Assembly: GCF_017854415.1 (NCBI RefSeq)
Contig: NZ_JAFMHR010000008.1
Coordinates: forward strand, 1 to 39,607
Length of the DNA stretch: 39,607 nucleotides
Source: Yoonia sp.
GTDB taxonomy: Bacteria > Pseudomonadota > Alphaproteobacteria > Rhodobacterales > Rhodobacteraceae
Direction: 5' to 3'
Shown: positions 114 to 37,940 of the stretch, in pieces
Layout of the letters: the number at the start of each line of letters is the position of its first letter
Numbering within the stretch: the stretch's first letter is position 1
Translations under genes and position numbers: made by a program
Notes under the pieces: model-generated
What the model was told of the DNA's origin: nothing
Databases searched by the model: none
Seen by the model: the letters and a program-made list of their open reading frames with translations, nothing else

Positions 114-848
114 ATGCTGGAGACCAAAACTGCCCCCTTCACATTTGTAAAACAGGGCATCTTCTACTTCTCACGACGGGTCCCGAGAGACCTTTCACAC
201 CACTATAACGCCAGCAGGATCATGTATTCGCTGCGCACTAGGTCTAAACTAATTGCGACTTCACGAGCGCAGAGGGCTGCACAGACGCTGGATGAGCATT
301 GGTATCACCTACGCATTCGTGACGTTGATCTGCCGGGAAAACATCTCCTTCGCACCCAAGCACAATCTCAGTCTGGTCTGCCTGTCGTTCCCGAAGGCGT
401 AGCTGGAGGCTTACTGAAGCTCTCTGAGGCGGTCGGCATCTATCTGCGCCTCAAAGGGCAGGGGCGTCCAATCACCTTCCATAGGGCCGCTGAGCGCTCC
501 TGCGGGTACGTCATGGATGTCTGTGGTGACAAGGACATCACCGCCTATACAAAAGCTGATGCAAACGCCTTCCGTGATGGTCTGATCAAACGAGGGCTTG
601 CTGGTAGCAGCATCACCCGCATCTTTGGCACTGTTCGAACTGTCGTCAACTTCTCGGCCAGTGAGATCGGTCTCGACATCAGCAACCTCTTCACACGGGT
701 TTACTACGACAGGAATGCAGGAGTTGAGGGAAGGGAACCGCTTCCCCTCGATGCGATCCGCAACATTCAGTCTGAGTGTCGCACTGTTGACGATGACCTC
801 CGCTGGCTGGTCGCCTTGGTCTCGGACAGCCTAAGCGACAGGTTCTAA
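114..848 (+). pseudogene. Truncated tyrosine recombinase (DUF6538 integrase), catalytic domain missing
   Basis: The first 60 residues match the DUF6538 N-terminal domain (the FYFSRRVPRDL stretch), followed by a SAM-like core-binding domain at about 100-190. The sequence ends at DDLRWLVALVSD, which in this family directly precedes the catalytic domain and its first active-site arginine. After that point there are six unrelated or displaced residues and a stop, giving 244 aa where intact relatives have roughly 350-450. All catalytic residues (R, H, R, Y) are absent, so it cannot recombine DNA. GGAG lies upstream of the ATG at 114. Its stop codon overlaps the stop of the convergent alcohol dehydrogenase gene, so a deletion or rearrangement border lies at about 820-848. 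Confidence 0.85.
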
Positions 849-3369: not shown

Positions 3370-3375
3370 TTTTTC

Positions 3376-4731: not shown

Positions 4732-4761
4732 AGGCCACTCTTTTTTATCATCACGCCGTCT

Positions 4762-7894: not shown

Positions 7895-7899
7895 GTCAG

Positions 7900-8904
7900 T
7901 TATCCCAATATGCTGCGACGAATGCGCGGATCGACAATGGCCAGCGCGATATCGGTGATGAAGTTAATGGCGATGATGCTGCCCGTCAGGAAGAAGATGA
8001 TTGCGCCCGCAAGCTGCTGATCATTTGAACGGGCCAATGCCTCGATTAGCAGCGACCCCGCTTCGGTCAATGTCAGGATCAGCGCGACAATGGGCAGTTC
8101 GTTAAAGATCCGGTTAAGATCAAAGCCAAGCGAGTTAATGATCGGGCTAAGCGCATGGCGTGCAGGGTATCGCATCAGCAACCTGCGCCCGGATACACCG
8201 CGCGCCGCCGCTGCCGTGACATAAAGTTTGCTGATTTCATCTGACATCAACGCACGAACGGTTTGGATGGCAAACGCTGTCGCCGACCAACCAAGAATGA
8301 AGACGGGTAGCCAGACGTGTCCAAGAAAATCTTTGATCTTGGGCCAATCCCATGGCGCGTCTCGATATTCCGGCGAAAAGAGACCTGTTAAACTGTCCCC
8401 GAAAAAGACGGTCGAAAAGAGCATAATCATCAATGCCAGCAGGAAGTTCGGCAGTGCCAATCCCAGATAGCTGACGATGCGCAGGCCGTTGTTCAGGTAA
8501 GGGTTGCGCGATGTCGCGGCGATGATGCCAACAGGAACTGCAATGAGGTAGGCCAAGAACAACGAGCCAAGGCAGATGCCGATGCTCAGCCATACTTTTT
8601 GGCCCAGTAGCTGATTTATGTTCAGGCGCAGAATGCAGCTATCACCAAATTCGCCTTGGAAGGCGTTGAATATCCAGCTTGTCCAGCGCTCTAGGTAGGG
8701 GCGGTCCAGACCCAGCCGAACGCGTTCAGCTTCGATGTCGGCGATAGAGATCTGTGCGCCCTGAGAGTTCTTGAAGGCGAGGTACCTCTCGGCGCAATCG
8801 CCGGGAACCAGTTCCATCAATGAGAATACAATAAATGAGACAAGGCAGAGTGTGAAAAACGCAAGGGCCGCGCGTATCGTGGCAAATCGAAGAAACTGAA
8901 CCAT
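7900..8904 (-). CDS. ABC transporter permease, DppB type
   Basis: A 334-residue inner-membrane permease: TM1 (IRAALAFFTLCLVSFIVFSL) at the extreme N-terminus, the LVPGD motif right after it, a periplasmic loop, then five more helices and the EAA-type coupling loop (TAAAARGVSGRRLLMRYPARH). I start it at the ATG at 8904, not at the in-frame ATG at 8985: the 27 extra residues are hydrophilic, precede the family's normal N-terminus and would run through the strong hairpin at 8956-8983. The Shine-Dalgarno sequence is weak, so expression may depend on coupling or read-through from the binding-protein gene. Confidence 0.9.
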   Translation of the reverse strand: MVQFLRFATIRAALAFFTLCLVSFIVFSLMELVPGDCAERYLAFKNSQGAQISIADIEAERVRLGLDRPYLERWTSWIFNAFQGEFGDSCILRLNINQLLGQKVWLSIGICLGSLFLAYLIAVPVGIIAATSRNPYLNNGLRIVSYLGLALPNFLLALMIMLFSTVFFGDSLTGLFSPEYRDAPWDWPKIKDFLGHVWLPVFILGWSATAFAIQTVRALMSDEISKLYVTAAAARGVSGRRLLMRYPARHALSPIINSLGFDLNRIFNELPIVALILTLTEAGSLLIEALARSNDQQLAGAIIFFLTGSIIAINFITDIALAIVDPRIRRSILG

Positions 8905-8955
8905 CTGTTTTCTGTGTCCCGGTAGAGTGTGCGCCCTCTCTTGGTGCGCTTTGGT

Positions 8956-8983
8956 GTTGCGGGCCAAGTGCGCGGCCCGCAAC
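8956..8983 (-). promoter_or_regulatory. Strong intercistronic hairpin between binding-protein and permease genes
   Basis: A perfect ten-pair stem, GTTGCGGGCC/GGCCCGCAAC, with an eight-base loop lies between the stop of the binding-protein gene and the permease start. No T-run follows on the minus strand, so it is not a classical terminator. Such hairpins in binding-protein operons commonly protect the 3' end of the upstream message from nucleases or partly terminate, giving more binding protein than permease. Confidence 0.7.
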
Positions 8984-9006
8984 AATCTCAGTCAGTGCGT
9001 GTAGCC

Positions 9007-11046
9007 TTATTCGTCAAGGAACCACTGCGACGGACGGTAAGGGTATGTCCGGTAGTAGGCATATGATGCCGTTCTGAAATCTGTGAAGTTCTTCAGGTCA
9101 GCATTGCGGTAAATTGGCTGCTGCCCTTTGACCGTACCGATAAAGAGAAGGTTGCCGGTCATGTTCTCGACCAGTTTCAGACCCAGTGCATCGGATTCAG
9201 GTGTCCCAACAGGGGTCGCCTGAAATGCTTTCACATCTTCCATCATTTCCATGACATACGCAGGTGGTTCAACACCGGCAGCACCATCGGATTCAACGTA
9301 TTCACCCCAAAGCATTGCGGTGCGCATGTTGAAATAGTTGTCGAAAGGCGGAATAAAGATTTCCGCGTTTCCAAGAACAACGGCCAAAGGCACGCTTTTC
9401 TCGAACAACGTAACATCAAGTTGGTTTGACGACTGTGATGAACGATATTCGTCTGTCGTGACTTCTTTGACGGTGTTGTTGATACCAACATCACGCCAGT
9501 TCTGTCCGACAAGTTCAACGATCTTGATCGAGATACCTTGCGTGGCAACCTGTAGGTTCAGTGTCAGTGCGTCGCCATTTGGCAATTCGCGCATACCATC
9601 GCCGTCAGTATCAACAACACCCATGCCGTCCAACAACGACTTGGCCATTTCGGGATCGAACTGTGCGAAATGCTGTTCCCACTCCGGTGTCACAAAATCA
9701 GGTGTCGGAGAAAAGCCAACATACTGCTGCGGACGGCCTAGGCCAAACAAAGCAACTTCGTTGATTTCGTCACGGTTGATTGCCACTGACATCGCTTGAC
9801 GGAACGCCAGATCACCGAAGACTTTGCGCTTTTCAGGGTCCTCAGAGGTCACGTTAAACGCAATCGTTGGCATCGTGATCTCTGGCTTGAGATCGACAAT
9901 AAAGCCACCGCTTTCCTGATTTTCCAGCAACAGCGGAACATAGTCGACCTGCAAGGCCTGCGCCTTATAGTCAACTTCGCCGTTTACAAGCTTCAACAGA
10001 CGGACTTCGCTTTCGCCAACAAAGATCTCGTCCATCTCGTTGATATAAGGAAGCTGGTTGCCCGCAGTATCGACCATGTAGAAATACGGGTTGGCAACAA
10101 ATTGACGTCCTTCGGTGTTTTCCGAAATGACAATGTGGCTTTCAAGTGTAGGTGCTGCGTCTAGCGGCAGGCCTGCAACTTTGTCGGGGTGGGCCAACAT
10201 AGGTGTTGGCGTGTCCATCCAGTCAGAGCTGCCATAATAGGCTTTGACAAGGTCATAGCCGTTTTCAAACCCAAGCGATTGGGCCAGCGCGTCGGCATCA
10301 GGGTTGATGTCTGGGTGGTACTGACCAAGGAAGTGCTTGGGCTGAAAACCTTGCGCGTAGTGGTTTGCAAAGTGGGCAAGGAAACCAGGCTTGGGCGATG
10401 GCATGTTGAAACGCACTGTCAGCGGGTCAAGTACGTCAACGGTCATCGGTTCACCGCCAGCCAGTACATAGTCCTTCGGGCTTTCGATTACGTTGGTGTC
10501 GAGTTGCAGGTTTTCATACCAGAACTCGACGTCTTCTGCACCGAATGGTTGACCATCGGACCATTTGTGGCCTTCGCGCAGAACGAATGTTAGCTGCGTG
10601 AAATCATCGTTCCACGACCAGCTTTTGGCAACGTTTGGAACGATAGTGGTCAAATCATCGGAATAACGAACCAGATTGACGTGACGCACGGACATAAAGT
10701 CCGACGTTCCGGACTCTGTCGCGTTGGACAGCGCATTGAAGATACCGCCGTAGCTGCCGATCATGTCGTATGGGGCAACAACCAATGGCTCCGCTGGGAG
10801 GCGATCCGCCAAAGCGGGCAATTCAGGGTTGCCGCGAATGCGTGCGTTCATTGCCGCAATGCCGGGGTTTTGTGTCATCTCCATTGTGCAATCAGCAAGG
10901 CCTTGGAATTCTGCCAGCTCGTACTGCTGGGGGAATGCGCCTGCTGCAACGCCCATGGGGTCCGATACGGTGACGGCCGGGCAAGCAGCCATTGCCGCAC
11001 TTGCCATGGCAGTCAGTGCCGCACTGGATAAGAGTATTTTTTTCAT
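9007..11046 (-). CDS. ABC transporter substrate-binding protein, family 5, oversized
   Basis: A 679-residue periplasmic solute receptor. The Sec signal peptide is clear: MKK, hydrophobic core, and AMA-A cleavage at about residue 21. SBP family 5 features include VAKSWSWNDDFTQLTFVLREGHKWSDGQPF at about 140-170 and the AMSVAINRDEINEVALFGLGRP region near 430. Typical DppA/OppA proteins have 500-550 residues, so about 130 extra residues are present, in line with the enlarged family-5 receptors that take up opines and similar modified amino acids. First gene of the minus operon; the promoter lies in the 472-bp divergent region. The ligand is unknown; adjacent amino-acid dehydrogenase and peptidase genes suggest a peptide- or amino-acid-derived compound. 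Confidence 0.92.
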   Translation of the reverse strand: MKKILLSSAALTAMASAAMAACPAVTVSDPMGVAAGAFPQQYELAEFQGLADCTMEMTQNPGIAAMNARIRGNPELPALADRLPAEPLVVAPYDMIGSYGGIFNALSNATESGTSDFMSVRHVNLVRYSDDLTTIVPNVAKSWSWNDDFTQLTFVLREGHKWSDGQPFGAEDVEFWYENLQLDTNVIESPKDYVLAGGEPMTVDVLDPLTVRFNMPSPKPGFLAHFANHYAQGFQPKHFLGQYHPDINPDADALAQSLGFENGYDLVKAYYGSSDWMDTPTPMLAHPDKVAGLPLDAAPTLESHIVISENTEGRQFVANPYFYMVDTAGNQLPYINEMDEIFVGESEVRLLKLVNGEVDYKAQALQVDYVPLLLENQESGGFIVDLKPEITMPTIAFNVTSEDPEKRKVFGDLAFRQAMSVAINRDEINEVALFGLGRPQQYVGFSPTPDFVTPEWEQHFAQFDPEMAKSLLDGMGVVDTDGDGMRELPNGDALTLNLQVATQGISIKIVELVGQNWRDVGINNTVKEVTTDEYRSSQSSNQLDVTLFEKSVPLAVVLGNAEIFIPPFDNYFNMRTAMLWGEYVESDGAAGVEPPAYVMEMMEDVKAFQATPVGTPESDALGLKLVENMTGNLLFIGTVKGQQPIYRNADLKNFTDFRTASYAYYRTYPYRPSQWFLDE

Positions 11047-26196: not shown

Positions 26197-26751
26197 TTAG
26201 AACGTTGGCGGGGTGCATGCGCTGATTACCCGGCACGTCGCGCCGCTGACATTACGAAACCGGTGGGGCAGGCGGCTGTCGAAGATATATCCTTCGCCGA
26301 CGCGCACGACTTTTATTTGATCGGCAACGGTAATTTCAATCTCGCCTTCTGTCACAATGCCCGCTTCTTCGCCTGTGTGGGTCAGCAATTCGGGCCCTGT
26401 GTCTGCACCGGGCGGGTAAATTTCATCAAGGATCTGGAGCGAGTGGCTGATCGCGTTACCAAGCTGACGCAAAGATACCGCAGGGCCATCGGACTGGGGC
26501 GCGATTTCAATGAACTCGTCGGAGCCATAAAAGTACTTGTCCTGCTGCCCTTGTTCGATGTTTGCGAAGAATTCGGCAATGCTCATGGGAATCGCATCCA
26601 AGAGGCTCTTGAGTGACGCTATCGACGGGCTGGTTTTGTTCTGCTCAATGAGCGAAACCGTTCCGTTCGTTAGACCGGCGCGTGACGCAAGTTCGCGTTG
26701 GGAAAGGCCGTGGGCTTTACGGATGTCCTGAAGTCGCTTTCCGATATTCAC
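26197..26751 (-). CDS. XRE-cupin transcriptional regulator, PuuR-like
   Basis: 184 residues from a GTG start at 26751 that has AAGGA seven bases upstream; the longer frame to 26850 adds 33 residues that precede the HTH and lack a ribosome site. The HTH_3 domain (about 3-58) contains LSQRELASRAGLTNGTVSLIEQNKTSPSIASLK; a cupin_2 domain (about 110-180) ends CRVISACTPPTF, nearly the same ending as E. coli PuuR (RIISAHTPTTF as I recall it). PuuR represses putrescine-utilisation genes and is relieved by putrescine. Divergent from the GabT-like aminotransferase, it most likely controls that promoter and perhaps the cluster downstream. Confidence 0.88.
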   Translation of the reverse strand: MNIGKRLQDIRKAHGLSQRELASRAGLTNGTVSLIEQNKTSPSIASLKSLLDAIPMSIAEFFANIEQGQQDKYFYGSDEFIEIAPQSDGPAVSLRQLGNAISHSLQILDEIYPPGADTGPELLTHTGEEAGIVTEGEIEITVADQIKVVRVGEGYIFDSRLPHRFRNVSGATCRVISACTPPTF

Positions 26752-26894
26752 ACAGCATTCCTTTTTCCGTTGCGGATTTTTGGTTGCAAGATCAATGTAA
26801 TGCAGGCGGATCATTATCGAAACAAAATTCGATAGGCAAATCGACGCCATGCACGCGCACTAAATATGTCTCAGGTATCTAGAAGGAATTCACA

Positions 26895-26981: not shown

Positions 26982-28361
26982 ATGGCAAACACCGAAAAGA
27001 AGAAGCCGCGCAAGACCTCTGCCAAGAAGAACCCGAACATTTCGGTTGTTCCTGATGTCGTCATGCATGTGAAAACAAATGCGGGTCTGGTTGCGCGTCG
27101 TGAAGCGGCTGTTGCACGGGGCGTTGCCTCTGCCGCACCGATTTTTGCTGATCATGCGGAAAACGCTGAACTATGGGACGTTGAAGGCAACCGCTTTGTT
27201 GATTTTGCGGGCGGTATTGCGGTGTTGAATACCGGTCACCGGCACCCAAAAGTCGTGGCTGCCGCAAAGGCACAAGAGGATCTTTATACACACACCAGTT
27301 TTCAGGTTGTCCCCTACGAGCCGTACGTCGCATTGGCCGAAAAGCTGAACGAACTTGCGCCAGGCGATCATGCGAAAAAATCGCTTTTGGTCACCACCGG
27401 TGCCGAAGCCGTTGAGAATGCTGTAAAAATTGCACGCGCTGCAACTGGCCGTCCTGGCATCATCGCCTTTACGGGCGGCTACCACGGCCGCACTCTTTTG
27501 ACCTTGGGTATGACCGGCAAGGTGTCCCCTTACAAAAAGGACGTGGGTCCGTTTCCGTCTGACATCTACCGCGCACCTTTCCCCAACTTGCGCGACGGGA
27601 TCACAGTGCAAGATGCGTTGACTGGCCTTCAGAACCTATTCCTCACAGATGCGCAGCCAGAACGCGTTGCCGCAATCATAATCGAGCCTGTGTTGGGCGA
27701 AGGCGGCTATACCCCAGTGCCGTTCGAGATGATGCAAGCTTTGCGCGAAATCTGCGACACCCACGGTATCATGTTGATTGCTGATGAAATTCAGGCGGGC
27801 TTTGGCCGGACGGGTACTTGGTTTGCGATTGAACATTCAGGCGTTGTACCCGATCTGATCACCGTCGCGAAATCTATGGCAGGCGGCTATCCGATTGCTG
27901 GCGTGATTGGTCGCGCCGAAGTCATGGACGCAGTTATTCCCGGTGGTTTGGGTGGGACATATGGTGGCAACCCTGTTGCCTGCGCTGCCGCACTTGCCGC
28001 AATCCAAGCGATTGAAGACGAAGGGCTGCTTGCGCGTTCCACTGCGCTTGGTGAATATTTTCGTACACGGTTTGCGGAAATTGGCGCGCGCGTTTCACCG
28101 TTCCGTATGTGGGACATTCGTGGCTTGGGGGCGATGCTAGCTGTCGAGTTTGTGACTGACTTTGAAACCGCCGCACCTGACGCTGCCCTGACAAAGTCGG
28201 TGGTTGCACATGCCTTGCAACGCGGTCTTATTTTGCTGGCTTGTGGTATGCACGGCAATGCCCTTCGAATTATGGTGCCTTTGACAGCATCTGACGCGAT
28301 CATTGATGAAGGTTTGACGATCTTCGAGGCAGCACTTGCTGCGGCAATCGCCGAAAATTGA
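26982..28361 (+). CDS. gabT: Class III aminotransferase, 4-aminobutyrate--2-oxoglutarate type
   Basis: 459 residues; PLP enzyme transferring an omega-amino group (GABA or similar) to 2-oxoglutarate and yielding succinate semialdehyde. Visible are the [21 protein letters not shown] cofactor region, TGGYHGRT, the acid pair in [18 protein letters not shown] and the Schiff-base lysine K297 in [14 protein letters not shown] is nine bases before the ATG. The N-terminus carries about 20 residues very rich in Lys/Arg ([11 protein letters not shown]) before the family sequence begins near residue 35, an unusual extension. Divergent from the PuuR-like gene and closed by a strong terminator, it is a single-gene unit; with the SSADH at 36387 it completes the GABA shunt. 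Confidence 0.88.
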
Positions 28362-28390
28362 ACTTCAGTTGGTTCTGAAAGTGACTTAAA

Positions 28391-28416
28391 GGCGGGCTTT
28401 AGGGCCCGCCTTTTTT
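28391..28416 (+). terminator. Rho-independent terminator after the aminotransferase
   Basis: GGCGGGC-TTTAGG-GCCCGCC followed by six Ts, 29 bp past the stop. A seven-pair all-GC stem with a U-tract is a strong terminator and isolates this gene from the following cluster. Confidence 0.95.
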
Positions 28417-28850
28417 GTTTGCAGGACCTGTATTCGGGTCGAAATATCCCAAGAATTAGAACCGCAGAGTGCCGAATATCGCGCCGATTGATGATAATAT
28501 TAAACAAAGTTGGTGGCAAATCATGAATTTTGTTGCAGAAATCAACCGACCTTGTCAGTGTTCAGAAACTGTCACGCTTTGTGCGTGGTTCGGAGGGCCG
28601 CGCTGGAAGATCTTGTGAGCAAACACGTTCTTAACGACATAAGTATGAAACAACTTTGGGCGTTCGGTAGGATTAATAGGAACGTCCTGAAAAATTACCG
28701 AAAGCTTAGTTTTTTGGTCGGCTCAAACGCTGACAGGGTTGTGCGTAGATCACCTATTACCGTTCTAGTCGTAAGGTCGTAGTAGATGCTTGAAGCAGAG
28801 ATAATGACAGCCTCTTCAGGCTGCCTCTGTCCTTATGGAGAATTTAGGAT
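28417..28850 (+). promoter_or_regulatory. Gene-free region upstream of the nitrilase gene
   Basis: 434 bp without a convincing gene; a 90-codon plus-strand frame (28510-28782) shows no domain, and its composition resembles noncoding sequence. Near the downstream end, CAGCC-TCTTCA-GGCTG lies inside GACAG...CTGTC (about 28806-28832), a small hairpin about 20 bases before the nitrilase start that could mask or expose its ribosome site (GGAG). The promoter of the nitrilase/decarboxylase cluster must lie here; no clear -35/-10 pair was found. Confidence 0.4.
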
Positions 28851-29972
28851 ATGACACCTTTCGCAATTGCTGGCGTCCAGATGCACGTACATGCGCTTGA
28901 ATCAAACGTTGAAGGGATGCTTCAGCGCCTTGATATCTTAATGATACGCTTTCCTTGGACGCAGATGGTTTTGTTCTCAGAACTTGCCCCGTTCGGTCCT
29001 TTGGACCAATACGCGTTGGCACCAGAAAACGAAACGCTTGAGCAGTTTCAGGCCGCAGCGGTAAAACACGGCGTTTGGCTGATCCCCGGTTCGATGTTTA
29101 TCACTGATCCCGTAGATGGACGCATTTATAACACCTCTTTCGTGATCAACCCGCAAGGCGAGATCATCCGCCGCTACGCCAAAATGTTCCCGTTCCGCCC
29201 ATACGAGGCTGGCGTTGCTGCAGGCACAGATTTTTGCGTGTTTGACGTACCCGATGTGGGCCGTTTCGGTCTGTCAATCTGTTATGATATGTGGTTCCCG
29301 GAAACAACGCGCCAGATCACCTCGCAAGGGGTCGAAGTTTTGTTGCATCCGGTTCTGACCGGCACAACTGACCGTGACGCAGAGTTGGCAATTGCTCGTG
29401 CTACGGCGGTGCAATTCCAATGTTATGTGATTGACGTGAACGGTTTGGGTGCCGGCGGTATTGGCAAGTCATGCGTTGTTGACCCGACATCCATGGTCTT
29501 GCACCAGTCAGGTGGCCAAGAGGACATGTTCCCAATCGAGATCGACCTCGACATGGTGCGCCGCCAGCGGGAAACCGGGATGAAAGGTCTGGGCCAAGTG
29601 CTTAAGTCGTTCCGCGACCGCTCAACTGATTTTTCCGTATATGACCGCGCCAGTGGCACGGACGCATATCTCAAAACACTGGGCCCGCTTGAGACACCAG
29701 GCAAAGGCGCAACCGCAGGCCTTGATACAGTGGCACCTGAATTGCGCGTGCCTTATCCTCAGTTGATAACGGGGTCTGGCATTGGGTCTAACTACGCCCA
29801 AAAAGCCCCTCCTGCCTTCGCGCCCGAGCCTTTGCCAAATCCAACTGCTGGAACTGCAGCACCAGCGCCGGACGCTACAACTGCCGAAGCGGCAATTGAA
29901 GTAACGTCTGTGCCTCACCCACCTGTCAAACCGGGTGTGTTCACCGGAACAGACGGTTCATCAGTTGACTAA
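28851..29972 (+). CDS. Carbon-nitrogen hydrolase (nitrilase superfamily) with Pro/Ala-rich tail
   Basis: 373 residues. The nitrilase fold (1-285) shows the catalytic triad: Glu in LFSELAPFG (about residue 44), Lys in RRYAKMFPFRPYE (about 108) and Cys in LSICYDMWFPE (about 145). Such enzymes hydrolyse amides, N-carbamoyl groups or nitriles. The pattern is amidase-like rather than true nitrilase, so cleavage of an amide such as N-carbamoylputrescine or a related amine derivative is plausible. Residues 290-373 form a low-complexity tail rich in Pro, Ala and Thr that is foreign to the family and may be disordered. First gene of the decarboxylase/ATP-grasp/C45 group, 151 bp before the decarboxylase. 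Confidence 0.88.
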   Translation: MTPFAIAGVQMHVHALESNVEGMLQRLDILMIRFPWTQMVLFSELAPFGPLDQYALAPENETLEQFQAAAVKHGVWLIPGSMFITDPVDGRIYNTSFVINPQGEIIRRYAKMFPFRPYEAGVAAGTDFCVFDVPDVGRFGLSICYDMWFPETTRQITSQGVEVLLHPVLTGTTDRDAELAIARATAVQFQCYVIDVNGLGAGGIGKSCVVDPTSMVLHQSGGQEDMFPIEIDLDMVRRQRETGMKGLGQVLKSFRDRSTDFSVYDRASGTDAYLKTLGPLETPGKGATAGLDTVAPELRVPYPQLITGSGIGSNYAQKAPPAFAPEPLPNPTAGTAAPAPDATTAEAAIEVTSVPHPPVKPGVFTGTDGSSVD

Positions 29973-29997
29973 ACCGCTGCATCACCATCGTATTGAT

Positions 29998-30020
29998 CTG
30001 GCGCCGCAACGCGGCGTCAG
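29998..30020 (+). promoter_or_regulatory. Intercistronic hairpin between nitrilase and decarboxylase genes
   Basis: CTGGCGCCGC-AAC-GCGGCGTCAG pairs over ten positions with one G-U wobble and a three-base loop, 26 bp after the nitrilase stop. No T-run follows. It probably acts as a processing or partial-termination element within the operon. Confidence 0.55.
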
Positions 30021-30123
30021 AAGCGAAGCCTGCAAGGCGACTAAATAGGTCAATCGCAATGGGGCCCAGCAAATTCTGTGGCACATACCCATCGTGTTGA
30101 ACCCCACTTAAGGAGAACGACCG

Positions 30124-32868
30124 ATGGATTCCGTCAGTGACTACTACTCTGCGACGCAACTACGCTCTGATAGATGGAGCGCGCTGCGTGAAGTTACCGG
30201 CGTACTTGCGCGCGAGGCCTCCACTAAGATCTCGGCAACTCATCGGGCAAAGGCCCACGACTTGTTCGACTCTCTTGCTTTGATCGAACCGTATTGGGCA
30301 TTCCCCGGCATGCCTGCATTTGAACATATGCGTCGCCAGCTTGAGCATAACAGTTTCGAAGATCTGGCATTTGCGGTGCACCGTGTGACCCGCGCACTGA
30401 CAACAGGTGCCTATCGCCGTCGCCGCATTCCGTTGGAACGCGATAGCCACGACACCAAAGAAGAACATGACGACGAGGCGCTTTTGTCGCCAGAGGCGCG
30501 CGCGCTGACCAAGCCCTATTTCGAGGTACTTATCGTTGATGATGTCAGCGAACAGCAAGAGCGTTGGTTGAAGAATAACGTCTCGCATATGCGCCGCGCA
30601 GAAGATCCGTTCATCTACGAAGCAGTTGTCGTGCCCAGCCTAGAGGATGCGCTGATCGCGGTATTGTTTAATCACAATATTCAGGCGATTGTGGTTCGCC
30701 CCGGCCTGACCCTGAAGTCCAAGTGGGACAATGAAATCCTACAAAAATACCTCAATCGCGCGGGTAGCAGCGAGTCGTTTGAAGCGATGAACCCCGAAGA
30801 CTACGGGCCGGAACTGTGTCGCCTGATTGCTCGCGTTCGCCCAGAACTAGATGCCTATTTGGTTACTGAAAGGTCTGTCGAAGATATCGCAGGTCTTGAT
30901 CTGGGGATTTGTCGTCGGGTGTTTTATAACCAAGAAGACTTTATGGAATTGCACCTAAACATCCTGCGTGGTGTTGAGGCCCGCAACAAGACGCCGTTCT
31001 TTACGGCACTTGTGAATTATTCCAAACAACCAACGGGCGTATTCCATGCGATGCCAATCAGTCGGGGGAAATCGATCACCCGCTCGCATTGGATACAAGA
31101 CATGGGTGCATTCTATGGCCCCAACATTTTCTTGGCTGAAACCTCTGCCACTTCTGGCGGACTGGATAGCCTCTTGGAACCACATGGCCCGATCAAAGAG
31201 GCGCAGGAACTTGCCAGCCGTGCTTTTGGCTCAAAACAGACGTTCTTTGCAACGAACGGCACATCGACTTGCAACAAGATCGTCGTGCAAGCTGTAGTGC
31301 GCCCCGGTGACATTGTTTTGGTGGACCGTGATTGCCACAAATCGCATCACTACGGCATGGTGCTTGCCGGTGCAGAAGTCGTGTACCTTGATAGCTATCC
31401 GCTGAACGAATATTCAATGTACGGCGCCGTGCCGCTACGCGAAATCAAGCATCAGCTTTTGGCTTTGAAGGCGGCAGGCAAACTCGATCGCGTGCGGATG
31501 CTGCTTTTGACTAACTGCACATTCGACGGTCTAGTTTATAACGTTGAGCGGGTAATGGAAGAATGCCTCGCCATCAAACCTGATCTTGTGTTCCTCTGGG
31601 ATGAAGCATGGTTTGCCTTTGCGCGGTTCAGTCCGACATATCGCCAGCGGACAGGTATGCGCACGGCAAATAATCTGCGCAAACGTTTCAAGACCGAAGA
31701 TCATGCCAAGGCGTATGCAAAGCAGCAAAAGAAGCTGAAGAATGCCACCGACGAAGATATTCTGAACACAAGGCTGATCGCACCTCCGGGCGCCCGTATT
31801 CGCGTGTATGCGACCCAATCGACCCACAAAACACTGACGTCGCTGCGACAGGGTTCAATGATCCATGTGAGTGATCAGGACTTTAAAGGCGAGGTAGAGC
31901 AGTCGTTCCACGAAGCCTACATGACGCATACATCTACATCGCCGAACTATCAGATTATTGCCTCTCTTGATGTGGGGCGCCGTCAAGTGGAACTGGAAGG
32001 CTTCGAATTTGTCCAGCGCCAGATCGAAGCAGCAATGTCGATGCGAAAAGCGATCAGCAGTCATCCGTTGCTTCAAAAGTACTTCAAGGTGCTCACAGCT
32101 GGCGACATGATCCCCGAACATCACCGTCAAAGCGGCGTGACCAGCTATTTTGACAATGATCAGGGTTGGACGGACATGTGGGATTGCTGGGAACAGGACG
32201 ATTTCGTTCTTGATGCCACGCGCGTTACGCTGGCTGTTGGCGGCACCGGATGGGACGGGGACACGTTCAAGAACGATGTCTTAATGGATAAATATGGCAT
32301 CCAAATCAACAAGACGTCACGCAATACTGTGCTGTTCATGACCAATATCGGGACGACCCGTTCGTCCGTTGCCTATCTGATCGAGGTGCTGGTCGAGATC
32401 GCAAACGAGCTTGATGATCTGCTGGATGACGCGTCCAAGATGGAACGGCTGTCGTTTGACCGCCGCGTCAAGAATTTGACGGAGAACTACCCGCCATTGC
32501 CCGATTTTAGCCGTTTCCATGATGCGTTCCGGCCCGATCATCAAACACCGGAAGGTGACATTCGGACCGCGTATTACCTGAGCTACGAAGAATCCAACTG
32601 TGACTATCTGGAATTAACTGGATCGCTGAAAGAAGCCCTGGATGCGGGTGACGAAGTCGTATCAGCGGGCTTTATCATTCCATATCCGCCAGGTTTTCCT
32701 ATCCTCGTTCCTGGTCAGGTAATTAGCCAAGAAATTCTAGCGTTTATGCTGGCGTTGGACGTCAATGAAATCCACGGCTATCGCGCCGACCTTGGTTTGC
32801 GCGTCTTCACGCCAGAGGCCTTGGCCGCCTTGCCACAAGCCAAAACAACCAAATCTATCGCCGAATAA
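30124..32868 (+). CDS. Orn/Lys/Arg decarboxylase family protein, long form
   Basis: 914 residues, against about 710-760 for E. coli AdiA, LdcC and SpeC. PLP fold-type I. The N-terminal 130 residues are an extra region, then a receiver-like wing domain (about 135-260, EVLIVDDVSEQQERWL), the major domain (about 290-700) with FFATNGTSTCNKIV, DRDCHKSHHYG, LFLWDEAWFAF and the Schiff-base lysine K569 in STHKTLTSLRQG, and the C-terminal domain (VSAGFIIPYPPGFPILVPGQV). It removes CO2 from a basic amino acid to give agmatine, putrescine or cadaverine; which one is undecided. AAGGAGA precedes the ATG. The next gene starts 15 bp later. It supplies an amine to the linked ligase and hydrolases. Confidence 0.9.
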   Translation: MDSVSDYYSATQLRSDRWSALREVTGVLAREASTKISATHRAKAHDLFDSLALIEPYWAFPGMPAFEHMRRQLEHNSFEDLAFAVHRVTRALTTGAYRRRRIPLERDSHDTKEEHDDEALLSPEARALTKPYFEVLIVDDVSEQQERWLKNNVSHMRRAEDPFIYEAVVVPSLEDALIAVLFNHNIQAIVVRPGLTLKSKWDNEILQKYLNRAGSSESFEAMNPEDYGPELCRLIARVRPELDAYLVTERSVEDIAGLDLGICRRVFYNQEDFMELHLNILRGVEARNKTPFFTALVNYSKQPTGVFHAMPISRGKSITRSHWIQDMGAFYGPNIFLAETSATSGGLDSLLEPHGPIKEAQELASRAFGSKQTFFATNGTSTCNKIVVQAVVRPGDIVLVDRDCHKSHHYGMVLAGAEVVYLDSYPLNEYSMYGAVPLREIKHQLLALKAAGKLDRVRMLLLTNCTFDGLVYNVERVMEECLAIKPDLVFLWDEAWFAFARFSPTYRQRTGMRTANNLRKRFKTEDHAKAYAKQQKKLKNATDEDILNTRLIAPPGARIRVYATQSTHKTLTSLRQGSMIHVSDQDFKGEVEQSFHEAYMTHTSTSPNYQIIASLDVGRRQVELEGFEFVQRQIEAAMSMRKAISSHPLLQKYFKVLTAGDMIPEHHRQSGVTSYFDNDQGWTDMWDCWEQDDFVLDATRVTLAVGGTGWDGDTFKNDVLMDKYGIQINKTSRNTVLFMTNIGTTRSSVAYLIEVLVEIANELDDLLDDASKMERLSFDRRVKNLTENYPPLPDFSRFHDAFRPDHQTPEGDIRTAYYLSYEESNCDYLELTGSLKEALDAGDEVVSAGFIIPYPPGFPILVPGQVISQEILAFMLALDVNEIHGYRADLGLRVFTPEALAALPQAKTTKSIAE

Positions 32869-32883
32869 CGAAGGGACCATACT

Positions 32884-34341
32884 ATGCCAACAGTGCTTAA
32901 GAATATCTCCGAGATCCGCAGGTTTTTCCACCGTAACGAAGACCCGATCTACTTTATTTCGGCGACGAACTTTAACCTTCTGGGCCTCGATGAATGGGTC
33001 AAGAACTTTAAATATATCTGCTACATCGACTGTTATGGCGGCAAGCACCCGAACGTGTTTTGCCCATCCGAGCAGCCGCATGCGGAATTCCAATCCATCG
33101 AAGACATCAACAACTATCTGCTGCAGCACAAAGAGGTCATCGATTTCATCAAACGCCGCGGTGGTAAGCCAAAGTTTGTCTTCTTGATGTTCGACGAAGA
33201 AACAGAACGCCTGTCAAAAGAGCTGGGTGCTGATGTCTGGTTCCCGAAAGCCAAACTGCGCACAAGCATGGACAACAAGATCGAAACTGTCCGTATCGGC
33301 AACAAAGCTGGCGTGCCATCCGTGCCGAACGTTCTGGCCGAAGTGAAGTCCTACGAGGACCTTCAGAAGACCTGCGAAAAAGCGGGTATCGGCCATGATC
33401 TGGTGCTGCAATCTGCCTTTGGCGATAGCGGACATACGACATTCTTTATTAAAACCGAAGCAGATTTCCGTCGGCATGAGCACGAGATCATTGGCGAAGG
33501 CGAGATCAAGATCATGAAGCGGATCGATTGCCGTGGATCGGCGATCGAAGCCTGTGCGACCAAAGAAGGCACGATCGTTGGCCCGCTTATGACCGAACTG
33601 GTTGGTTTCAGTGATCTGACACCATATCGCGGCGGTTGGTGTGGTAACGAAATCCTGTCGACAGCGTTCCCGCCAAAAGTACGTCAAAAGGCGCGAGAAA
33701 TGACGTTCAAGTTTGGTGAACAACTGCGCAAAGAAGGCTATCGCGGTTACTTCGAACTTGATTTCCTGATCGATAAGAAATCCGGCGAATTGTACTTGGG
33801 CGAATTGAACCCGCGCATTACAGGCGCGTCTTCGATGACGAACCACGCAGCCTTTGCCCATGCGGATGCGCCGCTCTTTTTGTTCCACCTGCTAGAGTTC
33901 TCGAAGAAGAAGTTCGACCTTGATACGACTGAATTGAATGATCGGTGGGCCAACCCCAACATGATCGACAGTTGGTCACAGATGGTCATCAAACATACCG
34001 AAGACAGCGTCGATATCTGCACCGAGGCGCCAGAGACAGGCATCTACAAAATGCTGGCTGACGGAAGTGTCGTTTACGACCGATTTGACTATCACCGCCG
34101 TGCCGTTGAATCCGAGAACGAAGCGTTTTTCTTGCGGATTTTGCAGCCCGGTGACTACCGCTATGAAGGTGCCGACATCGGCATTCTCGTGACGCGGGGT
34201 CGGTCAATGACGAAGAACTTCCAATTGAACGAACGTGCAAAGAAATGGATCCACGGCATCAAGAAAACAGTTGAAGGCAAGCCTTTGCCTGTTGCCAATG
34301 CCGGTCCGGTTCTGGCAGAGCCTGCGTTCAAAATACTGTAA
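32884..34341 (+). CDS. ATP-grasp ligase (biotin carboxylase-like fold)
   Basis: 485 residues. An N-terminal pre-ATP-grasp domain (1-130: FISATNFNLLGLDEWVKNFKYICYID) is followed by an ATP-grasp domain (about 130-330): the lid region VLQSAFGDSGHTTFF, IKIMKRIDCRGSAIEA, and the Mg-binding acid/Asn set FELDFLIDKKSGELYLGELNPRITGASS. A C-terminal 110-residue domain follows. No biotin-carboxyl-carrier site (MKM) exists and the biotin carboxylase C-terminal domain is not recognisable, so this is more likely a carboxylate-amine ligase making an amide through an acyl phosphate. GAAGGGA lies before the ATG; 15 bp after the decarboxylase and 10 bp before the C45 gene, hence one operon. The substrates are unknown; an amine from the decarboxylase is the obvious acceptor. 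Confidence 0.85.
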   Translation: MPTVLKNISEIRRFFHRNEDPIYFISATNFNLLGLDEWVKNFKYICYIDCYGGKHPNVFCPSEQPHAEFQSIEDINNYLLQHKEVIDFIKRRGGKPKFVFLMFDEETERLSKELGADVWFPKAKLRTSMDNKIETVRIGNKAGVPSVPNVLAEVKSYEDLQKTCEKAGIGHDLVLQSAFGDSGHTTFFIKTEADFRRHEHEIIGEGEIKIMKRIDCRGSAIEACATKEGTIVGPLMTELVGFSDLTPYRGGWCGNEILSTAFPPKVRQKAREMTFKFGEQLRKEGYRGYFELDFLIDKKSGELYLGELNPRITGASSMTNHAAFAHADAPLFLFHLLEFSKKKFDLDTTELNDRWANPNMIDSWSQMVIKHTEDSVDICTEAPETGIYKMLADGSVVYDRFDYHRRAVESENEAFFLRILQPGDYRYEGADIGILVTRGRSMTKNFQLNERAKKWIHGIKKTVEGKPLPVANAGPVLAEPAFKIL

Positions 34342-34351
34342 AGGAAGACGC

Positions 34352-35323
34352 ATGCTTTGGCGCGCAATCAGCGAAGACAAGCCCGGCCCGAAATGGGCCG
34401 GGCTATTCGCCGAATACTGGCCCCACTACAAACAGTGGTGGCTAAAGGAAGGCGATGCTGCGCGCGCCAGCTATCACGTCAGTAGACGTGCCCTGCAAGA
34501 ACATATGCCAGAGATTGTCCCGCTCTATGATGATCTGTGTGAACAGGCAGGCGGCGGTGACCAAGCGGCGCGTTTCCTAAGCTTCTATTGCCCTCCGCCG
34601 TACTTGGCGGGGTGCAGCCAAGCAATATGGCCGGGCAAAGAACCGGTCTTGGTACGCAACTACGACTACAATCCAGATGCGTTTGATAGCCTCGTTTTAC
34701 ATACCAATTGGCTTGGCAGGCGGGTCATGGGAACGTCTGACGGGCTGTGGGGTCTGGTTGACGGGATGAACGATGCGGGCCTTGCGATATCGCTGACATT
34801 CGGTGGCAGACGCGTTGTCGGCACCGGTTTTGGCGTGCCACTGATCCTGCGCTATGTCTTGCAAACTTGCACGACGGCCAAAGAGGCGGGTGCCGTCTTG
34901 GCGCGTGTCCCCACCCACATGAGCTATAACGTGACAGTGTTGGACGCAAAGCGGCGCTATCTGACGGCAATGATGGCCCCAGACAGGCCTGCGGTGATCA
35001 CCCATGCTGCAGTGGCCACCAATCATCAGGAAAACGTCGAATGGATCAGCCACGCGCGGTTCACAGGGACCGTGGAACGCGAGCGGTTCCTGCTGCAACG
35101 CTTGACGCTGCACCGTGATCCAGAAGAAAAGTTTATCGGGGCGTTTCTGAAGCCGCCACTTTATTCGACCGCATTTTCAGCAGGTTTTGGCACGCTATAT
35201 ACTGCTGTATATCGCCCGAAATTACAGCAAATGGAAATCCGTTGGCCTGATACGACTTGGGACCTTACGATGGATGGTTTCCAAGAAGGCGGGCGCAGGG
35301 TGCAGATCCCCGGTGCTGCATAA
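34352..35323 (+). CDS. C45-family autoproteolytic acyltransferase/hydrolase (Ntn fold)
   Basis: 323 residues from ATG 34352 (AAAGGAAG upstream; the longer frame to 34235 only overlaps the ligase gene). The family forms its active site by self-cleavage before a cysteine: here AGCSQAIW, with Cys88 the predicted nucleophile, preceded by FYCPPPYL and followed by VLVRNYDYNPD and GLVDGMNDAGLAIS, all standard for the acyl-CoA:6-aminopenicillanate acyltransferase group. The residues ahead of Cys88 would be the small subunit. These enzymes cleave or transfer acyl groups on amines. Directly after an ATP-grasp ligase, it may remove a protecting acyl group added earlier in the route. Confidence 0.85.
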   Translation: MLWRAISEDKPGPKWAGLFAEYWPHYKQWWLKEGDAARASYHVSRRALQEHMPEIVPLYDDLCEQAGGGDQAARFLSFYCPPPYLAGCSQAIWPGKEPVLVRNYDYNPDAFDSLVLHTNWLGRRVMGTSDGLWGLVDGMNDAGLAISLTFGGRRVVGTGFGVPLILRYVLQTCTTAKEAGAVLARVPTHMSYNVTVLDAKRRYLTAMMAPDRPAVITHAAVATNHQENVEWISHARFTGTVERERFLLQRLTLHRDPEEKFIGAFLKPPLYSTAFSAGFGTLYTAVYRPKLQQMEIRWPDTTWDLTMDGFQEGGRRVQIPGAA

Positions 35324-35332
35324 GCAACGCAT

Positions 35333-35553
35333 ATGTCACATATTTCCCCCCATCATACCAAGCAGCTACCACCTGTCGCCGTCCATGGTGAGGATTGCTG
35401 TGGGTGTGATGTTGCTATCCTATGAGCGGAACAGTTGATGGCCAATCCGGCGACCACGTCTTGCTAGCACCGCCGTTTATCATCAGCGATGACCAGATTG
35501 ATGGACTTGTTCAACAGCTGTCAGGCGCTGTTGAAACCGCCTTACAAAGCTAA
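35333..35553 (+). pseudogene. Class III aminotransferase reduced to its two ends by internal deletion
   Basis: Frame 35333 reads MSHISPHHTKQLPPVAVHGE and DCC, matching the start of roseobacter class III aminotransferases, then diverges and stops at 35425. From 35403 on, GGT GTG ATG, a one-base slip, and then TGC TAT CCT ATG give CYPMSGTVDG; the frame continues GDHVLLAPPFIISDDQID to TAA at 35551, the family C-terminus. About 370 central codons, including the PLP lysine, are missing. It sits 9 bp after the C45 gene and 10 bp before BKACE, so an aminotransferase once occupied this operon place. Confidence 0.85.
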
Positions 35554-35563
35554 AGGATCGCCC

Positions 35564-36394
35564 ATGTCGGACCCTTGTATTATTTGTGTCGCGATCACAG
35601 GCTCTGTGCCGCGCAAGCAAGATAATCCTGCGGTGCCTGTCACTGTCAGCGAACAAATCGAGTCGACCCATGCCGCATATGAGGCAGGCGCCACGATCTG
35701 CCATGCCCATGTGCGCAATGACGATGAGACACCATCGTCGGACCCCGACAAGTTTGCAGCGCTTAAGGAAGGCGTCGAAAAACACTGCCCCGGCATGATC
35801 ATCCAGTTGTCCACCGGTGGGCGATCAGGGGCAGGCGCAGAGCGAGGCGGGATGCTGTCATTGCGCCCTGACATGGCGTCGCTGTCTGTCGGTTCGAACA
35901 ATTTTCCGACCCGTGTTTATGAAAACCCGCCGCAGTTGGTTGATTGGCTCGCCTCTGAAATGCGCACCTACGATGTTAAGCCGGAAATCGAGGCCTTTGA
36001 TTTGTCACACATCCATCAAGCGGCCGCGATGAACCGTGACGGGCGCATCACGGGGCAGCTTTATGTGCAGTTCGTGATGGGGGTGAAAAACGCGATGCCA
36101 GTCGATCGCGATGTGTTTGACTACTATATCAAAACGGTCAAACGTCTTGCCCCTGATGCGCAATGGTGTGCTGCAGGTGTTGGGGCGGGGCAGGTGGAGG
36201 TCAGTGAATGGGCCATTGCCGCAGGCGGCCATACCCGCACTGGTCTGGAAGACAACGTGCGCTGGGACAAGCATTCACTTGCCCCATCAAACGCAGCCCT
36301 TGTGACGCGCACCGCCGAAATCTGTGCACGCTACGGGCGCCCTGTTGCGACACCAGCGCAGGCCCGTGCGCTTTTGGGCCTACGTCCTAGCTAA
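35564..36394 (+). CDS. Beta-keto acid cleavage enzyme (BKACE, DUF849)
   Basis: 276 residues from ATG 35564 (AAAGGA upstream), a Zn-dependent TIM barrel that condenses a beta-keto acid with acetyl-CoA, giving acetoacetate and a new CoA thioester, as first shown for 3-keto-5-aminohexanoate in lysine fermentation. Visible: the Zn pair in ATICHAHVRND (HxH), QLSTGGRSG, PEIEAFDLSHI, and the third ligand region HTRTGLEDN. Substrates vary widely in this family. The aminotransferase that would normally feed a keto acid to it is the adjacent pseudogene, so its role here may be lost or served by another transaminase. The stop overlaps that of the convergent SSADH gene. Confidence 0.9.
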   Translation: MSDPCIICVAITGSVPRKQDNPAVPVTVSEQIESTHAAYEAGATICHAHVRNDDETPSSDPDKFAALKEGVEKHCPGMIIQLSTGGRSGAGAERGGMLSLRPDMASLSVGSNNFPTRVYENPPQLVDWLASEMRTYDVKPEIEAFDLSHIHQAAAMNRDGRITGQLYVQFVMGVKNAMPVDRDVFDYYIKTVKRLAPDAQWCAAGVGAGQVEVSEWAIAAGGHTRTGLEDNVRWDKHSLAPSNAALVTRTAEICARYGRPVATPAQARALLGLRPS

Positions 36395-37868
36395 TTTCAC
36401 CCATGCAGAGATATTTGATCTCAAGATAGTCTTCGGTTCCGTATTTCGACCCTTCACGGCCCAGTCCCGATTGTTTTACGCCGCCAAACGGGGCCACTTC
36501 TGTTGAAATTAAACCGGTGTTGATACCAACCATGCCGCTTTCCAGCGCTTCTGCCACACGCCACACGCGCGCGAGGTCGCGGCTATAGAAATAAGCGGCC
36601 AATCCGAATTCACTATCATTGGCCATCGCGACAACCTCTGCTTCATCGGTGAATTTGAATAATGGGGCGACGGGGCCAAAAGTCTCTTCTTTGGCGACTT
36701 TCATGTCCGTCGTCACGCCCGTCAAAACTGTTGGCTGGAAAAAGCTGCCACCAAGATCGGCGCGCGCACCGCCCAAGGCGACTGTGGCACCTTTGGAAAC
36801 TGCATCCGCGATGTGGTCCTCGACTTTGGCGACGGCCGCATCGTTGATCAATGGGCCCGTTGTGACACCATCGGCAAAACCATCGCCTACGTTCAGGCCC
36901 TTTGTTTTTGCAGCCAGTTTCGCGGCGAAGGCGTCATAGACGGCGTCTTGCACATAGATACGGTTCGCGCAGACGCAGGTTTGGCCATTGTTGCGGAATT
37001 TAGCGATCATCGCACCCTCGACTGCGGCATCCAGATCAGCGTCGTCAAAGACGATAAACGGGGCGTTCCCACCCAATTCCAGCGACATCTTTTTAATCGT
37101 GTCAGAGCACTGGCTCATCAAGATTTTGCCAACGCGGGTTGAACCTGTGAATGTGATCTTGGCGACTTTATCGTTCGCGCACAGCTCTTTGCCGACGCCC
37201 GCGCTGTCGGATGACGGGATCACGTTGAAGACGCCTGCTGGAATGCCTGCGCGTTCGGCAAGCACCGCCATCGCGAGGGCAGACAGCGGCGTCAGTTCGG
37301 CAGGGCGGGCCACAAAGGTACAACCAACAGCCAAGGCAGGGGCGACCTTGCGGGCGATCATCGCATTGGGAAAGTTCCACGGTGTTATCGATCCAACAAC
37401 ACCAATTGGCTGCTTGAGCACGACAATGCGTTTGTCGCGCTGATGGCCGGGAATGACATCGCCATAAATCCGCTTTGCTTCTTCGGCGAACCATTCGATG
37501 AATGACGCTCCATAGATGATTTCACCGCGCGCCTCTGGCCATGGTTTGCCCATTTCCGCAGTCAAGATTGTCGCAAGATCATCTGCATTTGCCACGATCA
37601 AGTCGTACCATTTGCGCAAAACCCCCGCACGTTCTTTGCCGGTCCAAGCAGCCCAATCTGCCTTGGCGGCATAGGCCGCATCGATCGCAAGCTTTGTGTC
37701 TGCAACATCAAGATCAGCAACCTGCGCAATCACTTGGCCGTTGGCCGGGTTCGTGACGTCGAAGGTTGCATCCTTCTGGACCCATGCACCGTTAACGTAG
37801 GCGCGGGTCTCAAAGAGCGATGGGTCAGCAAGGCGAAGTGTATTTGTGGCTTGTGTCGTATCGGGCAT
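36387..37868 (-). CDS. gabD: NAD(P)-dependent succinate-semialdehyde dehydrogenase
   Basis: 493 residues from ATG 37868, which has a near-perfect AAGGAGGG seven bases upstream; an ATG at 37901 is less likely. Class ALDH5 features: SITPWNFPNAMIARKVAPALAVGCTFV, cofactor motif FTGSTRVGK, catalytic Glu in MSLELGGNAPF and catalytic Cys in NNGQTCVCANRIYV, whose second nearby Cys corresponds to the redox pair of GabD-type enzymes. It oxidises succinate semialdehyde to succinate and so takes the product of the GabT-type enzyme at 26982 into the TCA cycle. Convergent with BKACE with an 8-bp overlap of the 3' ends. Confidence 0.92.
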   Translation of the reverse strand: MPDTTQATNTLRLADPSLFETRAYVNGAWVQKDATFDVTNPANGQVIAQVADLDVADTKLAIDAAYAAKADWAAWTGKERAGVLRKWYDLIVANADDLATILTAEMGKPWPEARGEIIYGASFIEWFAEEAKRIYGDVIPGHQRDKRIVVLKQPIGVVGSITPWNFPNAMIARKVAPALAVGCTFVARPAELTPLSALAMAVLAERAGIPAGVFNVIPSSDSAGVGKELCANDKVAKITFTGSTRVGKILMSQCSDTIKKMSLELGGNAPFIVFDDADLDAAVEGAMIAKFRNNGQTCVCANRIYVQDAVYDAFAAKLAAKTKGLNVGDGFADGVTTGPLINDAAVAKVEDHIADAVSKGATVALGGARADLGGSFFQPTVLTGVTTDMKVAKEETFGPVAPLFKFTDEAEVVAMANDSEFGLAAYFYSRDLARVWRVAEALESGMVGINTGLISTEVAPFGGVKQSGLGREGSKYGTEDYLEIKYLCMGEIS

Positions 37869-37940
37869 CAGACCCTCCTTTGAGCGCGAACAAATGTTCA
37901 CTTTTTCACTCCTTATCAGATGACAAAGCAGGTGGACATG

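Follow-up and report, generated by a model that had tools for sequence, protein, structure and literature searches.

A conserved four-gene unit in Yoonia and other bacteria that may make and cleave an amide of gamma-aminobutyrate or beta-alanine

Composition and conservation of the unit

We analysed a window of 39,607 nucleotides from Yoonia sp. (contig NZ_JAFMHR010000008.1; the genome is an incomplete assembly of 3.1 Mb), in which 4 neighboring plus-strand genes encode a nitrilase-superfamily amidase (hereafter nitrilase), a pyridoxal-phosphate (PLP) decarboxylase of the OKR fold, an ATP-grasp ligase, and a C45 Ntn-hydrolase. They are followed by the remnants of a class-III aminotransferase gene and by a gene for a BKACE protein, and the whole group lies between gabT and gabD, 2 genes of gamma-aminobutyrate (GABA) catabolism (Table 1). 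All 6 linked plus-strand elements, including the lost aminotransferase, were located as described in an earlier note on this DNA, which had joined them into a candidate pathway of amine production, amide formation, amide cleavage, and keto-acid cleavage.

A contig scan with the ligase yielded 294 relatives, from which the most similar 80 loci of Rhodobacteraceae were retained, each with at most 10 kb of flanking sequence per side. Having been selected in this way, these loci are close kin, with ligases that are 89% to 97% identical. Scored by tblastn (E ≤ 1e-15), the nitrilase, decarboxylase, ligase, and C45 genes occur in one order and on one strand in 76 of the 80 loci, the 4 exceptions (L045, L052, L055, and L077) each missing one core gene at a contig end. 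This uniformity of order and strand excludes chance as the cause of the grouping. The earlier note had offered to give up its proposal if the decarboxylase, ATP-grasp, and C45 genes proved not to be conserved as a unit elsewhere; the check shows that they are, together with the nitrilase gene. Pairwise comparisons with 4 relatives (L040, L067, L050, and L063) gave pN/pS values of 0.046 to 0.172 for the 4 core genes and the BKACE gene, with synonymous sites near saturation.

Outside Rhodobacteraceae, loci were chosen for having the ligase: 28 ligase places were found in 25 genomes and 26 of them were retrieved, all but one copy in G1000 and another in G1042. The ligase and C45 genes are present in all 26 loci, the decarboxylase in 19, and the nitrilase in 17. 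Gene order varies between lineages (nitrilase-ligase-C45-decarboxylase in L137, for example), indicating that rearrangements have not broken up the unit. The cassette is spread over marine Rhodobacteraceae, soil bacteria, and rhizobial plasmids, and in one rhizobium it stands beside nif genes; we tentatively regard it as a mobile, conserved metabolic unit. In a set of 60 related genomes, 8 have the ligase at full length, and it is in these same 8 that the nitrilase (at least 79% identity) and the C45 protein (at least 80%) occur, along with the decarboxylase. The latter is found in 2 further, congeneric genomes (G005 and G008), at 84% identity and without ligase, C45, or nitrilase. Weaker matches in this set comprise a C45 protein at 49% identity in G020, a second C45 protein in G010, and a nitrilase at 52% in G036. 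In addition, C45 fragments adjoin puuR and gabT in G021 (L205) and a ligase fragment is found in G035 (L206), which we read as signs of cassette loss. At 2 loci with C45 alone (L213 and L214), the neighbors gave no clear functional lead.

Table 1. Features of the cassette and its immediate surroundings in the window
Feature	Coordinates	Strand	Evidence and remarks
PuuR-like regulator (HTH_3 + Cupin_2)	26197..26850	minus	divergent from gabT; NF007408 154.8 bits, cut-off 211
gabT, GABA aminotransferase (context gene)	26982..28361	plus	TIGR00700 550 bits, cut-off 507
Universal-stress-protein (Usp) gene remnant	28600..28779	plus	49% identity over 76 residues to L040 Usp, gapped
Nitrilase-superfamily amidase, 373 aa	28851..29972	plus	PF00795 (CN_hydrolase) 106 bits, cut-off 23.2
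OKR-fold PLP decarboxylase, 914 aa	30124..32868	plus	OKR_DC_1 262 bits, cut-off 27
ATP-grasp ligase (PRK06524)	32884..34341	plus	NF005096 760 bits, cut-off 684
C45 Ntn-hydrolase/acyltransferase precursor	34352..35323	plus	NF040521 177.5 bits, cut-off 85
Class-III aminotransferase remnants	35333..35547	plus	start and end kept, middle deleted, frames differ
BKACE, likely ATG 35564	35564..36394	plus	PF05853 313 bits; NF053568 501 bits, cut-off 350
gabD, succinate-semialdehyde dehydrogenase (context gene)	36387..37901	minus	TIGR01780 723 bits, cut-off 646

Predicted activities of the four enzymes

The decarboxylase belongs to the OKR-fold family, as judged by its OKR_DC_1 match and its Ser-x-His-Lys motif. 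The protein retains STHK at residues 566 to 569, DEAW, and a C-terminal PYPPG, and the PLP lysine, K569, is invariant in 102 of 102 homologue rows. The NCBIfam models for lysine, arginine, and ornithine decarboxylases remain far below their cut-offs (best 221 of 968 bits). In LdcI, docking led to the proposal that Glu526 binds the amine of the lysine substrate, according to the part of PMC5607190 that treats this residue. In the Yoonia protein, the position of this glutamate is taken by Asn729, within the motif IQINKTSRN (residues 726 to 734); Asn is found here in 102 of 102 homologues, and Arg733, 4 residues further on, in 100 of 102. Another candidate for the altered Glu526, the change from PGE to PGQ around residue 865, was rejected, the alignment placing Glu526 at Asn729. 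The closest solved relative, Rv2531c of M. tuberculosis (9n0n/9n0o), aligns over the full length (815 bits) and likewise has Asn at the Glu526 position, but Ile at that of Arg733; its activity is described as not clarified in the relevant portion of PMC12910592.

Relatives of the decarboxylase with the same motif also occur at loci that lack the ligase. Among plasmid records with the decarboxylase, 17 of 39 were opened, 8 of which have the ligase in the stretch (L123, L125, L126, L127, L129, L130, L218, and L221) and 9 of which do not (L207 to L212 and L215 to L217). Counting genome and plasmid loci together, 17 ligase-less loci with the same motif were retrieved, and in 11 of these a gene for an AspT-family antiporter is adjacent or near. 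These 11 loci, from 4 genomes (L198 to L201) and 7 plasmid records of Rhizobium, Ensifer, Phyllobacterium, and Rhodobacter, form one clade in a midpoint-rooted decarboxylase tree from which duplicate stretches and most of the 80 Rhodobacteraceae loci were left out. The AspT model scores 617 bits in L201, against a cut-off of 547, and 376 and 535 bits, below the cut-off, in L198. Because of the Asn729/Arg733 motif and the AspT neighbors of the ligase-less relatives, we predict that the decarboxylase probably acts on an acidic amino acid, converting glutamate to GABA or aspartate to beta-alanine. The "Orn/Lys/Arg" label is then probably misleading, and the production of a basic diamine, as implied by the amine production that the earlier note had ascribed to this enzyme, is not supported: Glu526 is replaced by Asn, and the ligase-less relatives stand beside AspT. 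Moreover, since G005 and G008 keep their copy without the other 3 genes, the decarboxylase probably does not act on the ligase product.

In the AspT-linked loci, the decarboxylase gene stands beside one or two AspT genes (L207 to L210, L215 to L217, and L198 to L201), aspartate 4-decarboxylase is encoded in 2 of the loci, and HdeA/HdeB acid chaperone genes in one, L207, which has both. Such loci possibly represent an acid-resistance island with a second decarboxylase. The locus L209 also adjoins genes of the ectoine-degradation type.

The ligase passes the cut-off of its NCBIfam family and is annotated elsewhere as a biotin carboxylase. Its AlphaFold2 model (pLDDT 90.1) has the ATP-grasp fold of the biotin carboxylase type, with biotin carboxylase and PurK as the best Foldseek matches (TM-score about 0.5 to 0.6); these fold matches point to no substrate. 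In biotin carboxylase, the Glu of the RIQVEH segment has a catalytic role. The ligase reads NPRITGAS where pyruvate carboxylase has NPRIQVEH, and a true carboxylase was rejected on account of this segment; we take the protein to be a carboxylate-amine ligase.

The longest C45 open reading frame begins with GTG 34235, inside the ligase gene, and ATG 34352 is, judging from the sequence, the likelier start. The structural model (pLDDT 93.6) has an isopenicillin N acyltransferase precursor as its best fold match (2x1c, E 1.4e-13), and residues C88, R102, N103, D105, and N224 are invariant in 18 sequences. The score above the NF040521 cut-off, the Ntn fold, and the conserved Cys place the protein in the autoproteolytic family, and self-cleavage is predicted; Cys88 is the presumed nucleophile and residues 1 to 87 would constitute a propeptide. 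The nitrilase consists of a core of about 296 residues, with conserved E44, K111, and C144, which we take to be the catalytic triad, and a Pro/Ala-rich C-terminal tail of ~75 residues encoded at 29740-29972. The tail is shared with the L050 copy, which aligns over 368 of 373 residues, the copies in L040, L067, and L063 aligning over 291 to 296. No specific NCBIfam equivalog is reached by the nitrilase, the scores being 52.7 of 410 bits for N-carbamoylputrescine amidase (AguB, TIGR03381) and 64.9 of 355 bits for deaminated-glutathione amidase. Formation of an amide by the ATP-grasp enzyme and cleavage of amides by 2 different folds, nitrilase and C45, as the earlier note had suggested, is the natural reading of the folds.

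Metabolic context, proposed reactions, and alternatives

The families that recur around the unit are uptake systems and genes of GABA catabolism. Accessory genes of the 80 loci were counted as homologues at set thresholds and, some stretches being short, the counts are lower bounds. A gabT gene at least 75% identical is present in 33 of the 80 loci and a puuR homologue in 20, as are a CaiB-like gene in 16 and a glutamate-synthase-domain gene in 31; outside the family, gabT at least 50% identical is found in 5 of the 26 loci. In rhizobia, glutamate dehydrogenase adjoins the unit in 5 of 6 loci viewed (L126, L127, L129, L130, and L218, not L221). Several other surroundings were observed. In L134 and L135, the 4 genes are located inside an ectoine-degradation cluster, between an Lrp regulator and ssd/atf-like genes, with DoeA, DoeB, and EutB above their cut-offs. 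On the Vaf10 plasmid of R. leguminosarum (L221), the decarboxylase, ligase, and C45 genes adjoin nifHDKE as well as genes for a Dpp transporter and an accompanying amidase, and on 2 other R. leguminosarum plasmids (L127 and L129), genes for the maturation of RiPPs (ribosomally synthesized and post-translationally modified peptides), namely a radical SAM epimerase, a C-methyltransferase, and a Nif11-like precursor, are a few kb away. A group of aminotransferase, VOC, and small-protein genes lies near gabT in L169, L170, L179, L180, and L182.

A different context is that of 6 loci, from Shinella (L124), Sinorhizobium RAC02 (L128), a record labelled Roseateles (L219), and L166, L175, and L176, in which no decarboxylase gene is found in the stretch and the nitrilase, ligase, and C45 genes are accompanied by genes for agmatinase-family, AruI, aldehyde dehydrogenase (ALDH), DadA, and racemase proteins. 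In L166, the 3 cassette genes head a run of 9 genes on the same strand. L124, L128, and L219 are closely related to one another, as are L175 and L176, so that the independent cases are few. What is labelled "alanine racemase" in L124 is a fusion protein, in which an arginase domain is joined to an Orr-like domain that scores 393 bits with NF040742 and so falls short of the cut-off (480); the fusion is encoded at 13782-15566 in L124 and at 8834-10666 in L202, where it also follows an agmatinase-like stretch. Stand-alone decarboxylase genes lie elsewhere in the genomes of Roseateles XES5, G974, and G1000. The expected outcome of the replacement operon is the conversion of arginine or ornithine to GABA. 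Because this operon takes the place of the decarboxylase beside the same 3 genes, GABA is likely to be the hub of the cassette: the presence of 2 different makers of GABA or another omega-amino acid next to one trio points to this product as the compound on which the 3 enzymes act.

Our preferred reading, put forward tentatively, is that the cassette forms an amide of GABA or beta-alanine and then cleaves it. What the analysis establishes is the gene unit, the folds, the conserved catalytic residues, the altered pocket motif, and the neighbors, the reactions themselves being predictions. The OKR-fold PLP enzyme would, with fair probability, remove the alpha-carboxylate of an acidic amino acid to give an omega-amino acid, a step for which the arginine/ornithine-to-GABA operon would stand in in other bacteria. 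The ATP-grasp enzyme, at the expense of ATP, might then join this omega-amino acid to a partner by an amide bond, a step we hold to be nearly as likely to occur as not to. The C45 protein would cut itself, expose Cys88, and cleave or transfer that amide, and the nitrilase, whose place may be taken by an amidase-signature enzyme at a few loci, would cleave a second, simpler amide. GABA would finally be consumed via gabT and gabD. One may go further and picture GABA or beta-alanine as an amide handle that can be used repeatedly. A novel type of acidic amino-acid decarboxylase with the OKR fold would supply it locally, the ATP-grasp enzyme would attach it to an incoming amine or amino acid, and C45 would remove it after other enzymes have modified the cargo; we regard this extension as speculative and quite improbable.

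A number of observations weigh against the preferred reading. The literature search found no substrate assay of these enzymes. To have a single product handled by a ligase and 2 hydrolases would seem futile if no other step came between joining and splitting. No close gabT is present in 47 of the 80 Rhodobacteraceae stretches, and gabD at least 75% identical is found in only 2, some stretches being short. Arg733 is replaced in the wider set (V in L130, H in L171, and P in L218). The antiporter argument is borrowed from relatives that are 47% to 50% identical; 6 of the 17 ligase-less loci have no AspT near (L194 to L197, L211, and L212), as have all 26 ligase-bearing loci outside the family, and the AspT model is absent from the Pfam and NCBIfam matches of 10 window genes. 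The AspT clade groups with divergent ligase-linked decarboxylases (L139, L140, and L171), leaving no clean sister group. Finally, the replacement operon would act on arginine or ornithine, which also fits a protecting-group scheme.

In such a scheme of protection, modification, and deprotection, which is close to the proposal of the earlier note, the ligase would acylate the side-chain amine of ornithine (alternatively of lysine or diaminobutyrate), and glutamate might provide the acyl group; the decarboxylase with a transaminase and ALDH, or the racemase, DadA, AruI, and ALDH, would lead to N-acyl-GABA, which C45 would deacylate, while the nitrilase would repair a deaminated side product. Both variants of the locus would then do one net job, the conversion of R-CH(NH2)-COOH to R-COOH, and the Orr-like/arginase fusion, DadA, and AruI of the replacement operon are in keeping with this. 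A protecting group would also keep 2-oxo-5-aminovalerate from cyclising, as the free compound is expected to do. An acidic N-acyl group could be accommodated by the Asn/Arg pocket, the ectoine-degradation clusters of L134 and L135 pass through diaminobutyrate, and decarboxylases of acylated amino acids are known, an example in another fold being that for N-citrylornithine mentioned in a portion of PMC8503589. However, G005 and G008 keep the decarboxylase without its 3 partners, AspT antiporters accompany relatives that share the motif, and an ATIII-type transaminase is encoded in only 26 of the 80 Rhodobacteraceae loci. We lowered our estimate of protected ornithine on account of the AspT neighbors and the ligase-less decarboxylases, and consider it possible but rather unlikely. 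It is likewise unlikely, and somewhat more clearly so, that the genes form a small biosynthetic pathway, incorporating GABA or beta-alanine into a short amide, such as a dipeptide-like osmolyte, a signal, or a building block, with C45 as acyltransferase, the nitrilase trimming, and the catabolic neighbors only recycling. An ATP-grasp enzyme paired with decarboxylation of a glutamate unit recalls how the side chain of butirosin is made, the C45 fold is matched best by an acyltransferase precursor, and the nifHDKE and RiPP neighbors described above would suit a product of this kind; yet the recurring families around the unit, uptake and GABA catabolism genes among them, include neither a carrier protein nor a nonribosomal peptide synthetase (NRPS).

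The ordinary route from arginine or ornithine to putrescine and GABA, in which the nitrilase would serve as N-carbamoylputrescine amidase, could account for the OKR_DC_1 match and for the nearby gabT, gabD, and PuuR-like genes. It was rejected on NCBIfam scores (neither AguB nor the Lys/Arg/Orn decarboxylase models come near their cut-offs), on the Asn at the Glu526 position, and on the neighbors. No agmatine deiminase model is among the families matched by the 6 genes of the earlier note, and we deem this route very unlikely. Least probable of all, to the point of being barely credible, is that the aminotransferase and BKACE form an integral last stage that would turn a beta-amino acid made by the cassette into acetoacetate and a CoA ester. 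BKACE genes are accompanied by the aminotransferase in 5 of 5 cases. Nevertheless, they occur in only 5 of the 80 loci and the intact class-III aminotransferase homologue in 26, the aminotransferase has been lost from the window while the core remains, and BKACE passes the equivalog cut-off for 3-oxoadipate:acetyl-CoA acetyltransferase (NF053568). BKACE, which the earlier note had included in the pathway, was rejected as a core part on this frequency and score and is an accessory.

Compared with the intact L040 protein, the aminotransferase scraps in the window correspond to residues 67 to 88 (82% identity; 35333-35398) and 462 to 506 (78%; 35413-35547). TAXI genes are found in 41 and TRAP permease genes in 44 of the 80 relatives; the gap between gabT and the nitrilase gene in the window (28362-28850) holds no TAXI/TRAP transporter, and the window as a whole gave only weak, scattered matches. 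The window has lost these transporter genes, the Usp remnant marking the place. At some distance, a minus-strand cluster (845-11046) encodes an Fe-type alcohol dehydrogenase, an ALDH, a glutamine-synthetase-like protein, and a Dpp-type ABC transporter, and is possibly a second amine/amide catabolic cluster. Its glutamine-synthetase-like gene (3376-4731) is 24 kb from the cassette and scores 192 of 650 bits with the GGputSyn model.

Known counterparts and implications

A literature search, mostly of open sources with few subscription journals, did not retrieve a description of this gene combination. One parallel is the gamma-glutamylputrescine (Puu) pathway, which shares ATP-driven amide formation on an amine or amino acid, later amide hydrolysis, GABA as product, and the proximity of gabT/gabD and a PuuR-like regulator. 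In that pathway, PuuA resembles glutamine synthetase and PuuD is a hydrolase of the glutamine-amidotransferase type; the cassette instead uses an ATP-grasp ligase, which lacks the glutamine-synthetase fold, together with C45 and nitrilase proteins. In butirosin biosynthesis, BtrJ is an ATP-grasp ligase, BtrG removes the acyl group, the intermediates are bound to a carrier protein, and BtrK has another PLP decarboxylase fold. BtrK decarboxylates a glutamate residue in the making of the butirosin side chain, as stated in the part of PMC8503589 that deals with it. The ATP-grasp ligase, the passage from a glutamate to a GABA unit, and the removable acyl group are thus common to both systems, whereas no carrier protein recurs around the cassette.

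Two animal systems resemble the cassette in outline, in that an omega-amino acid is bound to an amine with ATP and, in one of them, released by a C45 protein: the NRPS-like Ebony joins beta-alanine to an amine and the C45-family Tan releases it, and carnosine synthase is an ATP-grasp enzyme. Aspartate:alanine antiporter systems of acid resistance resemble the cassette through the decarboxylase relatives with the same pocket motif that adjoin AspT, but differ in that no AspT is near in the window or in the ligase-bearing loci outside the family. The 2-ketoarginine (Aru) route shares AruI, ALDH, and an agmatinase-family gene with the 6 replacement loci, which add DadA, the fusion of ornithine-racemase-like and arginase domains, and the nitrilase, ligase, and C45 genes themselves.

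Collectively, the analysis turns 3 vague labels, "biotin carboxylase," "Orn/Lys/Arg decarboxylase," and "C45 family peptidase," into testable predictions. The handle scheme, if true, would be an independently evolved counterpart of gamma-glutamylation with built-in synthesis of the carrier, and an OKR-fold decarboxylase of acidic amino acids, if confirmed, would also be relevant to what many unassigned proteins do, the AspT-linked ones included.

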